64,000 nt of DNA from Zobellia amurskyensis. GTDB taxonomy: Bacteria; Bacteroidota; Bacteroidia; Flavobacteriales; Flavobacteriaceae. The stretch lies in contig NZ_RCNR01000015.1 in NCBI RefSeq assembly GCF_009725985.1, positions 1 through 64,000 on the forward strand. The letters are read 5' to 3'. A program made the position numbers and the translations under genes. The notes under the pieces are model-generated. The model worked only from the letters and a program-made list of their open reading frames with translations. It was not told the DNA's origin and searched no databases. The first letter of the stretch is position 1; each line of letters begins with the position of its first letter. Positions 25,219-34,006 of the stretch are shown piece by piece.

Positions 25219-25830
25219 TTAAGCCTTTACGGTTCTAGAATGCTCCATAAAGTGGTTCTCTAGACGCTCCAATTGCGGATGCGGTTTTTCGGCATAGATG
25301 ACAAACTGACTTTTCTTGATACTTGCTGCCATGGCGATCAGGCCGGTAGATTCTTTTTTGTTGGAAAGGAATTCGGCATCGTCCACACTCACTATTTTAA
25401 GCTCGGAAATACTAACGCCATTGGTCAAAAACAGGTTGTGCAATGTTTTTGGGGTGGTAATCAGAATATCTATACCCAAGTATATCTCGGACTTTTGCAC
25501 GTCTATATGCAGCTGCTCATAACTAGCGTATACTCGTAACGAACTGTATTTGGTGTATTCAATAAAGCTCTGATACAATTCTAGTACCTTCTCTTTGTTT
25601 TCTACCATAACCACCGCTCTTGGCGCATCTCCCACAGCCTCACATTTTAGCTTTTGCAAGGTGGTCAGGATTAAAGTTGTTGTTTTTCCGCTGCCTTTTT
25701 TAGCAAAAGCAAAGACATTGATGCCACTTTTTATTACGGGAATGCTACTTTTTTGAAAGGGTGTTGGCGTTTCTATTTCCAAACGCTCTAAATTCTCCAA
25801 TAAGTGCGGGTGTAATTTTTTAAATGGCAT
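25219..25830 (-). CDS. Stand-alone N-terminal RecA domain of a DEAD-box-like helicase
   Basis: A 203-residue protein equal to only the first RecA domain of a DEAD-box helicase: opening PFQKSSIPVI (Q-motif region), Walker A AKKGSGKTT, TTPKTLHN (Ib) and VDDAEFL in the motif II position instead of DEAD. Motif III and the whole second RecA domain are missing, and it ends cleanly at a stop. It is convergent with the SDR gene (12-base gap). Either a truncated helicase kept as a regulator or a decaying copy; the intact frame favours a functional product. Confidence 0.8.
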   Translation of the reverse strand: MPFKKLHPHLLENLERLEIETPTPFQKSSIPVIKSGINVFAFAKKGSGKTTTLILTTLQKLKCEAVGDAPRAVVMVENKEKVLELYQSFIEYTKYSSLRVYASYEQLHIDVQKSEIYLGIDILITTPKTLHNLFLTNGVSISELKIVSVDDAEFLSNKKESTGLIAMAASIKKSQFVIYAEKPHPQLERLENHFMEHSRTVKA

Positions 25831-28473: not shown

Positions 28474-29688
28474 ATGTATAAAATTTTATCGTTAGACGGC
28501 GGCGGCAGTTGGGCCATCATTCAATTGCTCACGCTTAGGGACCGCTACGGAAATATGAACGGTCATGAGGTCCTTCGGAAATTTGATTTGGTCATTGCCA
28601 ATTCCGGCGGAAGTATTGTTTTGGCTGCCCTGGCCGAGAATTATTCCATAGATAAGGCCATTACCTTGTTCAAGGATAAAGAAAACCGGGAACGTATTTT
28701 TCATAAGAATTCCTTTCGGGAACGCTTTTTTCCGGTGGACTATTTACGGGCGTTTGGTATTGGGTTTGGACCCAAATACAGCGCTACCAAAAAGAAGGAA
28801 GCTTTTGAGTATTTGTTTCCGGAGGTAGATAAAGTGCAGATGAACGAGCTGCCTAAAATTATAGGCAAGGCATCCCTAAAAATCGTGGTCTGTACGTATG
28901 ACGCGTTAAACAACCGGGCCAAGTTTTTTAAGTCCTACGCTTTAACTCCCGCACGCTATGACTCGGTAAAGCTCACACAGGCCATTAACGGTTCTTCCAA
29001 TGCTCCCGTGCAGTATTTTGATTTCCCCGCACGGTTTAAAGCACAAGAGAGTGGTGTGTTTTTTGAACTTTGGGATGGCGCCCTTGGTGGTTTCAATAAT
29101 CCTATTCTTTCGGGTATTATTGAGGCCTATAAACTGAAAGTGGACTTAAAGGACATACAAATTGTTTCCCTTGGTACCAGTAACTCGTTAATGTCTTCGG
29201 ATAGTAAAGAGACGTTTTGGAATTGGAAGCTAGACACCCAGCAACACCGAAGAAAGAAATGGGCTTTTCATAAATTCAAACCTCAGGTAAGCTTCTTTAT
29301 GGAAACCGTTTTTAACCAAGCCAAGACCATTTTATACCAACCGCCGGACACTGCCAATTATATGGCCATGATGTTCTTTAAGGCCACAACGGGCAAAGAT
29401 TTGAACGAAAGCATCATACGGTTATCGCCACTTATTCATTTTGATGATAAGCTGTCTACGGAAGCCGTACCGCTCATAAAACAACTGTATGCATTAGATA
29501 TGGACTTGACCAAAGACGCGCAAGTGGACTTGCTCCTACAGTGTTTTGAAGCTTGGAAAGCCGGAAAAATTTACAACCAACCTGTTGAATTTGAGGTGGA
29601 AAGAAACAATGATTTGTTATTTCTTTCTGGTGATAGATGGTATCAGGATGGGATGGATCGGTGGAGGGAGTGGGAGGTTGGAAGATAA
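28474..29688 (+). CDS. Patatin-like phospholipase family protein
   Basis: A 404-residue patatin-fold protein. It has the glycine-rich oxyanion loop DGGGSW (8-13), the nucleophile elbow as ANSGG (42-46, S44 the likely nucleophile; the first glycine of GxSxG is alanine) and the dyad aspartate D201 in LWDGALGG. Patatins hydrolyse acyl esters of phospholipids or galactolipids. No signal peptide. It is followed by the AT-rich two-gene unit at 29829, but 140 bases and a sharp change in base composition separate them, so I do not assume they act together. Confidence 0.85.
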   Translation: MYKILSLDGGGSWAIIQLLTLRDRYGNMNGHEVLRKFDLVIANSGGSIVLAALAENYSIDKAITLFKDKENRERIFHKNSFRERFFPVDYLRAFGIGFGPKYSATKKKEAFEYLFPEVDKVQMNELPKIIGKASLKIVVCTYDALNNRAKFFKSYALTPARYDSVKLTQAINGSSNAPVQYFDFPARFKAQESGVFFELWDGALGGFNNPILSGIIEAYKLKVDLKDIQIVSLGTSNSLMSSDSKETFWNWKLDTQQHRRKKWAFHKFKPQVSFFMETVFNQAKTILYQPPDTANYMAMMFFKATTGKDLNESIIRLSPLIHFDDKLSTEAVPLIKQLYALDMDLTKDAQVDLLLQCFEAWKAGKIYNQPVEFEVERNNDLLFLSGDRWYQDGMDRWREWEVGR

Positions 29689-29828
29689 TTCAGGCTGAAT
29701 TTTGAACGAAAATTTCAATTATATTTTGATAAACACTATTTGAAGAAAATATTTGCAGCGAAGTAAATTTATATGTTCTATTTCTAGATGGTTAATAGAA
29801 CTAACTGTTAACAATTAAATTTTTTAAT

Positions 29829-31409
29829 TTGGACTTGTTTGAATTACTCTTAGAAGGAAAGAAAATAAATGACTTTTGGGAAAGGTATAATGATTTCTGC
29901 GAAAATCCTGTAATAAAAAATATCAACTCATTTTATAAAGCTCTTCCGATCCTAGTTGAAAGATTGGAAGGTGATTTTTCCTCATCGAAACTATCAGGGA
30001 TAATTAAGAGTTTATCAATAAAAGATTTTGATTTTGGTAAAGAATTATACTTCAAGATTATAAATGAAGAATGTCTAACTCTCTACCCACAAATTAAATA
30101 TCTGCTTTCTGGACTTTATGAATCGAATAGTGGTTTTGTCACTTCACAGATAACTCAGTTAATCACAGGGAATGACAATCAACTTAGGGAAGTTGGTATA
30201 GATTCTGCATCAGAGATTGACATAAGCCGGAATAATATTTCTGAAGAATTTAAGGATTGTCTAAATAATAGTTTGCTGATTTTAGCCAAAGATAAAAATG
30301 AAAGAAAATTATGGCCTGCCGTTTTTAGAATTAGCAGAAATCAATTAAAAACAATTGACAATGCCTACTCTATTATAGATATTTTGGTATCAAAGAGAGA
30401 TATTGATATTCAAAAGGAGATAATAAATTTGTTGCTATATAACTTGGATATTGAAACGGATTTGAAATTGATTAAGAAATATCTCCAACATCTCATTCGT
30501 CTAGATTTAAAACATAAAGGGGAATACCATAGTCTTTCATATTTTCTCAAATCTTTAGTGGAAAAGAATCTAGAAGTAGTTATCAAATTTATTAACTGTT
30601 GGGTAGTTGACAATGTAGCTAATTCTAGGAACATAGCTTATTTTTCACAAACATTAAATTCTATTTACGATGTCAATTTTGTTGCATTTCAAAAACTTTA
30701 CACATCGTGGATGAATCATGACAAAGTGAATTTTCAGATTGCACTTCATAACATGAACAATGGCCATGAGTTTAGAGATTATTCAGATTTAGAATTTTCT
30801 TTAGAATTATTGATGAGTTATACGAAGTACGATATCGAATTCATAAGTTATAAAACCTTGGGATATATTTATGATAGAGAATTAACCCAATCTTTATTGT
30901 ATTCAATATTAGTTAGTAAATATAAAGACTGCGAACTCACTAATTTTATTAGTGAGTTATTTATTGATTGTATAATTTTTAATTATTATTCAGCAATTGA
31001 TTTTCTAAAAAAAAATAAAGAAAAGACATCTTCCGTTAAATTGAAAAAAATAATTGATAGTATTATAAAAAAAGGCGAAGAAATGTATTCGGCCTATTCT
31101 GATTTAGAAGTTTTCAAGGAATTCTCTCCATCTGAACGCAGATTGAACTATTATAATAAATTGCAAAGTAAAAAAATTAGTAAATCATATGAAGAATCGG
31201 GGGGACAAAGCAGCTTTCAAAATTTGTTCAAAACGTTACATTTCCGAACAGGAGAATCATCATTTGCAAAAGTTAATGGAGAATATTCTCAAGAATTAAC
31301 TCCGGCTACAATTTCGCATAGTACTGAAATGCCTAGGGGAGAATTTATTGACCCTATAGGTCAGGCTAAACTTAGATTATTATGGCAAAATTTTACTAGA
31401 ACAAAATGA
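29829..31409 (+). CDS. AT-rich helical protein of unknown function (first gene of two-gene unit)
   Basis: A 526-residue soluble protein I do not recognise. It is almost entirely helix-forming, rich in Leu, Ile, Asn, Lys and Ser, without signal peptide, membrane span or nucleotide-binding motif; the pattern suggests an alpha-solenoid scaffold. The last 70 residues (SYEESGGQSSFQNLFK to RLLWQNFTRTK) look like a separate flexible tail. The start is TTG at 29829; no in-frame ATG lies nearby. Codon use and AT content differ sharply from flanking genes, a sign of horizontal gain. It overlaps the next gene by 4 bases (ATGA), so the two products probably work together. Confidence 0.8.
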   Translation: MDLFELLLEGKKINDFWERYNDFCENPVIKNINSFYKALPILVERLEGDFSSSKLSGIIKSLSIKDFDFGKELYFKIINEECLTLYPQIKYLLSGLYESNSGFVTSQITQLITGNDNQLREVGIDSASEIDISRNNISEEFKDCLNNSLLILAKDKNERKLWPAVFRISRNQLKTIDNAYSIIDILVSKRDIDIQKEIINLLLYNLDIETDLKLIKKYLQHLIRLDLKHKGEYHSLSYFLKSLVEKNLEVVIKFINCWVVDNVANSRNIAYFSQTLNSIYDVNFVAFQKLYTSWMNHDKVNFQIALHNMNNGHEFRDYSDLEFSLELLMSYTKYDIEFISYKTLGYIYDRELTQSLLYSILVSKYKDCELTNFISELFIDCIIFNYYSAIDFLKKNKEKTSSVKLKKIIDSIIKKGEEMYSAYSDLEVFKEFSPSERRLNYYNKLQSKKISKSYEESGGQSSFQNLFKTLHFRTGESSFAKVNGEYSQELTPATISHSTEMPRGEFIDPIGQAKLRLLWQNFTRTK

Positions 31410-33094
31410 GATTTTTATTAAGTGAATATGTTAACCTATTAAAAGAAGATGGAGAATTAGACACTTTAATTACCGATCTTCTTGTAGCTATGAAATGTGT
31501 CACAATTTCTAAACCACAGAGGGGAAGGCAATATGGAGTAGATATTGCAGCAGAAGGAATTGATGTTGTTGATTCAAAAAAGAAAATTTTTCTATTTGCT
31601 GTGAAGCAAGGAAATCTAACGCGTAGTACTTGGGATGGCAATATTAATGCAGTACGATCATCATTAAATCAAATTAGAGATTCTTATATTCCTATATCTC
31701 TTCCTAAAACAAAATCTAATTTACCTATCAAAATTGTTGTTGCAACAAATGGTGTAATTAATCAAAATGTTTTAGTTGACTGGGCTCAATATATAAATCA
31801 AAATTCCACAGATGATATTGAGTATGACTTTTGGGGAACTGGAGAACTTAGTGCAATGCTTGATGAATATTTAATATCAGAAAAATTATTTCCAACGGAA
31901 TATCAATCGTTATTACGAAAAACTCTTGCATTTTTAGATTTACCCGATTATAATTTATCTCACTTCTTTGATCTATTAGATTTGATTTTTTCTAAACAAT
32001 TTAAGCAGAAAAGGCAAATTCAAAAGAAATTGAGGTTAGCAAGATTGTGTTTAAATATATTGTATAAATGGAGCCATGATATCAATAATTTAAAACCTGC
32101 CATTTATGGAAGTGAAAGAACAGTATTACGGTCGTGGCATTTTTTACAATCAGGGAATCATTTAGATAAAAAATTTGTTAGTAAAGAGTTCTATCAAATT
32201 TACCTTCTTAAAAGAGCTATTGGAATTAACTATTTCAACAAAGTACATAAGCATTATCAAACTGAGCACAGTTTATACCGATATAGCAGAAATAGTCTGG
32301 AATATGGTCTTAATTTATGGCATGAAATAGGCATTATCTCAGAAATTGGTTTGAGTGAAATACAACAATTCAAAATTTATTTTAGAGAAGAAAAAAAGGA
32401 AGATAGTTTGGTTTTTTATAATAGTGCAACTTCAATAGCAAATGCGTTATGTATGTTTATTGCAAACAATCCACCAGCAAAATATCCTAATTATGATGAA
32501 CATGGAATTGAAATCGCTTTGGCTCTTCAATTACTTTGTTTAACTAACAATACGGAGACGGCTAAAATTTGGATTAGAAATTTAATTGTAGGTTACAAAG
32601 AAACATATCATATACAGAAGACCATCCCTTTGTTTATAGCTGATTATGATAGGTTAGTTGATATAATTAACGGTGATGAAAAGTGTAATATTGATTCATC
32701 AATGATAATTCCAATTCTAGCAGAGCATGCTATTATTCTAGAAGATGCTGATTTATATGAATTAATAAGAAAAGTTGTTGAAGATGATGTATTTAAAGAT
32801 TTAAACCTTCAAATTTGGTTTCCCACGAGGAAAATGGAAGAGAGTATATTCAAGAATAATTACAGTAAAGTTGAGGGAAAATTAAAACACTCCGTTACAC
32901 TTTACAAAAATTTAGAGGAGTATAGGACAGAAATTATATCTGAAGTTGAACTATACAGTGTCGAGAAAGAGTTTAAAGTGGTAGAGAATGGTTTCGACAA
33001 TATTTTGTTTACTGCAAGTAGGCATTATCGTGGCCAACCATTTCCTTATACGTGGAGAAAATTTATTAAACTAAATACAAAGGCTAATCACTAA
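31406..33094 (+). CDS. Probable PD-(D/E)xK nuclease-domain protein (second gene of two-gene unit)
   Basis: A 562-residue AT-rich gene. The N-terminal 160 residues resemble a restriction-endonuclease (Mrr/PD-(D/E)xK) fold: a helix (ELDTLITDLLVAMK), a glycine/arginine loop, D46 in QYGVDIAAEG, then the strand IFLFAVKQGN with K67, in which the usual E or Q before xK is A65. LTRSTWDGNINAVRSSLNQI forms the next helix and IKIVVATNG and YDFWGTGELSAMLDE follow. The rest is helical with no known motif. Coupling to the upstream scaffold-like gene and foreign base composition suggest a defence or mobile function; this is inference. No methyltransferase or ATPase is nearby. Confidence 0.78.
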   Translation: MRFLLSEYVNLLKEDGELDTLITDLLVAMKCVTISKPQRGRQYGVDIAAEGIDVVDSKKKIFLFAVKQGNLTRSTWDGNINAVRSSLNQIRDSYIPISLPKTKSNLPIKIVVATNGVINQNVLVDWAQYINQNSTDDIEYDFWGTGELSAMLDEYLISEKLFPTEYQSLLRKTLAFLDLPDYNLSHFFDLLDLIFSKQFKQKRQIQKKLRLARLCLNILYKWSHDINNLKPAIYGSERTVLRSWHFLQSGNHLDKKFVSKEFYQIYLLKRAIGINYFNKVHKHYQTEHSLYRYSRNSLEYGLNLWHEIGIISEIGLSEIQQFKIYFREEKKEDSLVFYNSATSIANALCMFIANNPPAKYPNYDEHGIEIALALQLLCLTNNTETAKIWIRNLIVGYKETYHIQKTIPLFIADYDRLVDIINGDEKCNIDSSMIIPILAEHAIILEDADLYELIRKVVEDDVFKDLNLQIWFPTRKMEESIFKNNYSKVEGKLKHSVTLYKNLEEYRTEIISEVELYSVEKEFKVVENGFDNILFTASRHYRGQPFPYTWRKFIKLNTKANH

Positions 33095-33313
33095 ACAGGG
33101 AAAACGCTCAGAGGACAAAATACTTGGAATTGATGAACCTATATATAGCTTGGATACTACACTACAAATAATAATTTGGGAATATTAAATAGTACTTTTA
33201 AAAGGTTTGCAAAAGTGAATATTCAGATAATTAAAAGATAACAAGAAAGATATATTCATATAAAATGCCCAAACTGCGGCACATCAATATTTTTAGAATC
33301 CTGTGTTAATGTT

Positions 33314-34006
33314 CTACTCATAAAACTCCGCCACCTCATCTAAAGGCTTCCGTGCAATATCCGGCACATATGTGGGCGATTTTGGATAGCCTACTGGCAA
33401 CAATAGAAATGCACGTTCATTACTGGGGCGGTTCAATAACTTGGCCAGAAAATTCATAGGGCTAGGGGTGTGGGTCAAGGTTACCAAACCTGCGTTGTGT
33501 ATGGCGGTAATCAACATGCCACAGGCAATACCCACAGATTCGTTTACGTAGTAATTGTTTATTTTTTCGCCTTCATCACCAAGGTCATGTACCTTTTTAA
33601 AAACAATAATAAGCCAAGGGGCTATTTCTAAAAAGGGCTTGTGCATATCCGTACCCAGCGGTTCTAAATCTTTTTTCCAACGGTCGCTCATTCTACTTTC
33701 GTAGCTTTCTTTTTCTTCGGCTTCCGCGGCTTCTTTAATTTTAGTTTTAAGTGCAGGGTTGGAGACGGCACAGAACGTCCACGGTTGTTTATGCGCACCA
33801 GATGGAGCTGTAGAGGCTGTTTTGATCAGCGCTTCTATAACTTCTTTGGGAACGGGCGTATCTGCATATTCCCTAACGGACCTACGCTGGTCCAGAAACG
33901 AGTAAAAAGCTTCACTTTGTTTCAAAAGCTCTTCTTGCGAAAGGGCGTTTTCTTGGTAGATCACATGTGGGTGACCATTAACGGAAATATGAGATGTAGA
34001 TGACAT
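33314..34006 (-). CDS. Iodotyrosine deiodinase-like nitroreductase-fold flavoprotein
   Basis: A 230-residue FMN enzyme of the nitroreductase fold that closely follows iodotyrosine deiodinase: RRSVREY (41-47, FMN contact), APSGAHKQPWT (67-77), the active-site lid with E98, Y102 and K123 at the positions of the mammalian substrate-binding Glu/Tyr/Lys triad, SVGIACGMLITAIHNAGL, TLTHTP and LLPVGYPKSPTYVPDIARKPLDEV. The mammalian enzyme is membrane-anchored; this form lacks the anchor, like known bacterial homologues. Likely reaction: reductive dehalogenation of halotyrosine or halophenol. Single gene. Confidence 0.88.
   Translation of the reverse strand: MSSTSHISVNGHPHVIYQENALSQEELLKQSEAFYSFLDQRRSVREYADTPVPKEVIEALIKTASTAPSGAHKQPWTFCAVSNPALKTKIKEAAEAEEKESYESRMSDRWKKDLEPLGTDMHKPFLEIAPWLIIVFKKVHDLGDEGEKINNYYVNESVGIACGMLITAIHNAGLVTLTHTPSPMNFLAKLLNRPSNERAFLLLPVGYPKSPTYVPDIARKPLDEVAEFYE

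Follow-up and report, generated by a model that had tools for sequence, protein, structure and literature searches.

The 64,000-nucleotide stretch of Zobellia amurskyensis DNA analyzed here (contig NZ_RCNR01000015.1, positions 1 to 64,000; below called the window) carries two overlapping genes, oloA and oloB, which together make up one instance of Olokun, a previously named system of anti-phage defence. The pair, probably acquired, occupies a variable defence slot of the chromosome, and we consider it probable that OloA acts as a helical-repeat sensor or regulator gating OloB, a putative nuclease of the PD-(D/E)xK type.

The gene pair and its spread

The first gene, oloA (29829..31409, forward strand), has a TTG start, encodes 526 amino acids and matches the PADLOC profile PDLC03925 over positions 77-594 of 596, with an expectation value (E) of 5e-54. 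It lies immediately upstream of oloB (31406..33094, forward strand; 562 amino acids), which matches PDLC03926 over positions 1-555 of 556 (E 2.8e-144). These OloA and OloB profiles we take to be the two proteins of Olokun. The matches rule out an undescribed system, as an earlier note made from the sequence alone had called the pair: Olokun is already in print in PMC10121019, a passage of which credits Millman et al. 2022. Supported from that description is a coupled, foreign-looking and probably anti-phage unit, the second gene of which begins with a PD-(D/E)xK-like domain.

The genes overlap by four bases (ATGA, 31406..31409, forward strand). The TTG start of oloA is plausible because it lines up in the alignment with the ATG starts of three relatives (L075-L077). 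Both genes are AT-rich, as the earlier note had said of them: guanine plus cytosine (GC) content is 0.288 for oloA (z-score -4.74) and 0.297 for oloB (z -4.35), against a mean of 0.394 (standard deviation 0.022) in 45 other window genes. This comparison used 47 of the 56 open reading frames (ORFs) of at least 120 amino acids, the pair included; nine overlapping or short ORFs were excluded by eye. GC at third codon positions is also low relative to the other window genes (z -2.27 for oloA, -3.03 for oloB). Measured by codon-usage distance to 23 other genes longer than 1 kb, oloB is an outlier (z 2.99) and oloA is not (z 1.00), so that the proposed check of composition finds abnormal GC in both genes and clearly odd codon use in oloB only.

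According to the list of ORFs of at least 100 amino acids, oloA and oloB are the only genes between a patatin-like and a nitroreductase gene. Methyltransferase, ATPase and integrase genes gave no match between these flanks in the ORF list or by Pfam, which agrees with the first description. An ordinary restriction-modification (R-M) system is ruled out, there being no methylase between the flanks. Neither protein has a Pfam match above cut-off, and no NTPase domain of the STAND/NACHT type scores above cut-off in either (PADLOC, Pfam).

A genome-wide search finds a single OloB in the source organism. Among 397 Flavobacteriaceae genomes, OloB matches 17, of which 14 are strong; the OloA profile matches 39, and its 14 strong matches fall in the same 14 genomes. 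Homologues of the two genes stay together in all of these: oloA and oloB are adjacent, in the same order and with overlapping ORFs (14/14). The overlap measures 4 to 20 bases in 12 pairs, and 44 and 74 bases in two for which the ORF finder chose the longest start. The count excludes three genomes with weak OloB matches, two of which (G027, G349) have an OloB-like domain on long proteins, with NACHT seen in that of G027, and one (G045) a short C-terminal match. Also left out are 25 genomes with weak OloA matches only (E 1.7e-12 or worse); the three such matches examined (L094 of the window's own genome, L035 and L044) are HEAT-repeat proteins. As a control, 14 well-known genomes were searched: OloA matched in two (Synechococcus elongatus and Methanosarcina acetivorans) and OloB in none.

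On a wider scale, OloB matches 9 of 395 genomes of the phylum, several of them partially or weakly, and 34 of 72,556 plasmid records, and none of 50,697 phage records. Three viral contigs carry it (L095-L097), L095 and L097 encoding the same OloB; a further contig from the viral scans, L113, is that of L096 again. A Klebsiella query gave no match in the viral scans. Of 5426 E. coli genomes, 5 have a match to this Klebsiella DNA, over 75% in two of them and over a short stretch in the other three. Pairs beyond the Flavobacteriaceae that match both profiles are L095, L096, L108, L109, L110, L111 and L112; in L096 and L108-L110 the genes are adjacent with 4-base overlaps. A Tolypothrix plasmid (L107:2724-7740) is an exception to the pairing, its oloA (E 1e-106) and oloB being split by two transposase ORFs. 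In L082 (8615-10141) oloB is cut at 508 amino acids, and what is left of the match falls in an open frame of its own.

Architecture of OloB and OloA

The N-terminal domain of OloB (residues 1-157; 31406..31876, forward strand) resembles PD-(D/E)xK nucleases in the model and in an alignment of 15 such domains (A7), two of them near-identical (4 differences in 163). AlphaFold2 models residues 2-156 as helix, helix, three strands, helix, strand, helix, strand, helix, with a predicted local distance difference test score (pLDDT) of 60-85 per block. The core order of the PD-(D/E)xK fold (helix, three strands, helix, strand) is present, so that the predicted structure has the nuclease topology which the earlier note had proposed to look for. 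D46, A65 and K67 are as first described, in an alpha/beta nuclease-like domain: in the model D46 directly precedes the second strand, K67 lies where the third strand ends and E17 where the second helix begins, and D92 is part of the helix that follows the third strand. E17, G40, G44, D46 and K67 are invariant in all 15 aligned domains. Residue 65 varies (A in 3, T in 4, S in 3, V in 3, I in 1 and E in 1). The closest relative of OloB is 64-65% identical.

The same domain also occurs on NTPases. The N-terminal part of OloB matches the start of a 795-amino-acid protein (L015, the same as L139:1392-3779; E 5.7e-6 in a search with whole OloB, 4e-9 by BLASTP) that continues as a NACHT/nSTAND NTPase, scoring 31.9 bits for NACHT against a cut-off of 26.7. 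With L015 included, a profile search found one further protein, of 803 amino acids (L138, 4504-6915; E 3.4e-16) whose NACHT score of 24.4 bits falls just below the cut-off. Over the N-terminal stretch of both, Mrr_cat matches weakly and below cut-off (E 0.0059 for L015/L139, 0.0038 for L138). The PADLOC candidate PDC-S60 matches L015 outside the OloB-like domain. In NACHT-type proteins the effector role usually falls to the N-terminal domain, and because the OloB domain recurs in this position, the comparison supports a role of OloB as the putative effector.

OloA was modelled as all-helical up to about residue 447, which bears out the first description of an all-helical product with no known motif. 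Residues 1 to about 445 (29829..31163, forward strand) form a predicted helical solenoid with armadillo/importin-type Foldseek matches, the best being importin-alpha and designed armadillo repeats (E 7e-4). Because the template modelling (TM) score is about 0.2, just the general fold type suggested by these matches is credible. Compared with the sequences of solved structures, OloA matches designed repeat constructs only (best E 7e-4), which we read as an effect of composition. The C-terminal tail (about residues 446-526; 31164..31406, forward strand) was delimited by pLDDT and conservation. Its pLDDT is under 50 over residues 446-512, yet it holds the best conserved stretch of the protein, centred on EMPRGEFIDPIGQ: measured against 13 relatives, identity averages 0.17-0.28 in the first 200 residues and 0.56 in residues 481-520. 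The closest OloA relative is 43% identical, OloA diverging faster than OloB. Two OloAs on Klebsiella plasmids, 300 amino acids long, match only profile positions 360-589 and 313-589. This conservation gradient and the C-terminal-only Klebsiella proteins fit an OloA composed of a variable part that may serve in sensing and a conserved part that would work with OloB. The enterobacterial oloA-like genes of 300 amino acids (L111:1296-2198 and L112:1296-2198), whose profile match is confined to the C-terminal part of OloA, each lie upstream of a near-full-length oloB.

The chromosomal slot and the settings of relatives

In the window the slot extends from 29689 to 33313, between the patatin-like gene (28474..29688, forward strand) and the nitroreductase gene (33314..34006, reverse strand), both identified by Pfam and DNA search and both outside Olokun. 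A DNA search of the region over nine genomes of the genus found the patatin flank in eight, the nitroreductase flank in all nine and Olokun DNA in the source genome only. The absence of OloB was read from a protein search in three congeners (G001, G236, G388) and from the DNA search and slot content only in the five others.

The corresponding slots of the eight congeners (L086-L093) differ in content. L086 has a KAP NTPase, and L087 is empty with 157 bases separating the neighbours. A C5-methylase with an HpaII-type enzyme, an R-M combination, occupies L088 and L093, the latter without the patatin gene. SIR2 and HerA are found in L089, HNH with a partial HpaII-type enzyme in L090, and two DUF488 proteins (PADLOC candidates PDC-M45B/C) with DuOB in L091. 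Overall, four of the eight slots hold clear defence-type genes, two hold candidates, one is ambiguous and one is empty; the nine genomes together show seven distinct contents and one empty site. GC content of the congener slot genes is 0.29-0.36 versus 0.40-0.44 for the patatin genes. The slot of L092 (3214-5586) encodes a 790-amino-acid AT-rich protein with weak Nuc_deoxyrib_tr and ORC-CDC6-like matches, a candidate for an unclassified defence gene.

At the right edge of the slot, 61 bases (33229..33289, forward strand) match the 5' end of a DUF2130 gene, the remainder of which is missing in the window. This gene is whole in five of the eight congeners (L086-L090; Pfam was run on that of L086). 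The patatin protein matches phospholipase effector profiles of PADLOC (best E 1.8e-27) and DUF2130 weakly matches ZorA (E 1.8e-5); out of caution about PADLOC, neither was counted as defence. The patatin gene is probably resident, since it is in place in nearly all of the genus genomes. No integrase was present among the slot proteins scanned, so that recombination in the flanks is a possible route of exchange.

Outside the genus, patatin homologues were found in four other genera (69-74%; 249 genomes). By the ORF list only, no low-GC gene adjoins them in L120, L121 and L123. Next to another such homologue lies a gene of 904 amino acids with a GC content of 0.30 and HD-CE and HATPase domains (L122:5419-8133). 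Because of these neighbours the slot looks mainly genus-specific. In view of its varied contents within the genus, further defence genes may be sought in it. Elsewhere in the window, a DEAD-box helicase ORF (25219-25830) has just 203 amino acids and is perhaps a short gene or a broken one.

Relatives of Olokun sit in mobile settings, among conjugation, integrase and phage genes and on plasmids. TraG and coupling-protein genes lie near the L079 and L080 pairs (Pfam); the setting of L081-L083 was likened to these solely from similar-looking ORF starts. A tyrosine integrase is found near the L075 pair, a terminase near that of L095 and a phage-repressor-like S24/HTH gene near that of L096. On conjugative plasmids, the pair has type IV secretion system genes alongside in Phaeobacter and a NACHT gene alongside in Agrobacterium. 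About 1.7 kb from the oloA of L084 is an N6-methylase with a specificity domain. In L073-L076 a gene of 367 amino acids follows oloB; that of L073 (9998-11101), the one analyzed with Pfam, is a DUF4238 gene without a PADLOC match, and it is possibly a third Olokun part or else a separate gene.

Proposed mechanism and comparison with known systems

Judging from the alignments and models, OloA most likely senses infection and gates OloB, which in turn would cut nucleic acid. The fast-changing N-terminal solenoid of OloA would meet the infection signal, and the conserved tail would contact OloB. Once triggered, the N-terminal PD-(D/E)xK-type domain of OloB would cut with a non-canonical site made of E17, D46, K67 and perhaps D/E92, which may stand in for the missing acid. 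Because no methylase protects the host, OloB would be kept inactive until triggered, or its target would be exclusive to phage. The term scaffold-like, used at first for OloA, was a guess; a helical-repeat sensor or regulator, itself inferred, fits better. More tentatively, Olokun might be a split, NTPase-free counterpart of NACHT/STAND proteins which shares their effector nuclease and in which the OloA sensor replaces the NTPase switch. The nuclease would then belong to a class whose E...D...xxK site is without the usual acid, and a HEAT/ARM-like OloA would read the phage with its variable solenoid and gate OloB with its flexible conserved tail.

Several observations weigh against a sensor-gated nuclease. 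Both models have a shallow basis (five sequences, two identical, and a mean pLDDT of 72.5 for OloB; four sequences and 73.2 for OloA). The OloB model has no Foldseek match in PDB at E 0.001; its best match is MspJI (E 0.025, TM 0.18 by query length), and helical-repeat proteins come next among the top matches. Searched against the sequences of solved structures, OloB gave no match (just E 0.39 or worse in one search). The kinship with the NACHT-fused proteins appears distant, because neither L015 nor L138 is picked up by the PADLOC OloB profile at E 0.01. Finally, residue 92 is D in nine domains and E in five, and is N in L111, and the acid two positions before the lysine is absent in 14 of the 15 domains (E in L084 only; present in 2 of the 14 domains of another alignment, A1). 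The nuclease fold of OloB may thus be dead. In that case it would bind DNA or a phage protein, and harm would come from OloA or from the C-terminal 400 residues of OloB, which are mostly helical in the model and without a Pfam match. We regard this as doubtful, since invariance of E17, D46 and K67 in 15 of 15 domains is unlikely for a dead site and, according to a section of PMC6344858, active acid-swapped enzymes exist.

The tight overlap and co-occurrence of the genes would also suit a toxin-antitoxin-like pair, in which OloA, bound to a toxic OloB nuclease, frees it when infection disturbs OloA; the flexible conserved tail could be the inhibitory peptide, and the lack of a methylase agrees with such a pair. 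This is unlikely: OloA is large, with a fast-evolving N-terminal part more like that of a sensor, and the Tolypothrix genes are separated by transposase ORFs. Lack of a methylase partner also agrees with modification-dependent (type IV-like) restriction, where OloB would cut modified phage DNA read or presented by OloA. The best fold match is indeed a restriction enzyme, MspJI, and the NACHT-fused relatives weakly match Mrr_cat, but the fold match is not significant, Pfam finds no domain reading modified bases and OloA resembles solenoids, which makes this explanation quite improbable. That the pair is a housekeeping or selfish unit merely travelling with mobile elements is hardly credible in view of its patchy spread (14 of 397 genomes), its defence-type slot and its membership of a named defence family.

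Among the published passages on Olokun, one lists its mechanism as unknown (PMC12926258) and another calls the system not thoroughly characterised (PMC12592470). A table in PMC10855318 places it under nuclease activity, and PMC12629846 gives an occurrence in a Pseudomonas island hotspot. Our literature search, thin in subscription papers and preprints, found no mechanistic paper on Olokun, and for the patatin-side slot it returned just unrelated papers. Four results were not found in the literature searched: the link to NACHT fusions, the pattern of residues shared with distant relatives, the gradient of conservation along OloA and the genus-wide slot. The invariant residues, NACHT fusions and conserved OloA tail allow specific tests of the Olokun mechanism.

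Compared with known nucleases, OloB is like MspJI in that the latter is the top PDB match of its model, but at the E and TM values given above and without a domain reading modified bases by Pfam. The CCGG-family restriction endonucleases have a PD...K...D/E arrangement with the acid supplied elsewhere and a glutamate on an N-terminal helix, according to a section of PMC6344858. OloB likewise lacks the (D/E)xK acid and has a glutamate on an N-terminal helix, but there is no sequence match; the likeness is one of active-site layout and not of kinship. The NACHT-fused proteins (L138, L139 = L015, and L016) have equivalents of E17, G40, G44, D46 and K67; they differ in not keeping D19 and Q42 of OloB and in carrying the NTPase in the same chain, whereas Olokun has no NTPase and pairs OloB with OloA. 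With Olokun itself the window pair shares both proteins, gene order, size class and a defence-type setting. It differs in that OloA is without about 76 N-terminal profile positions and that the closest plasmid OloB, among the matches listed, is 32.7% identical to that of the window. A truncated oloA is unlikely, as close relatives share the start and most strong OloAs of the family begin at profile positions 59-80 (those of L020 and L021 reach 10 and 22).

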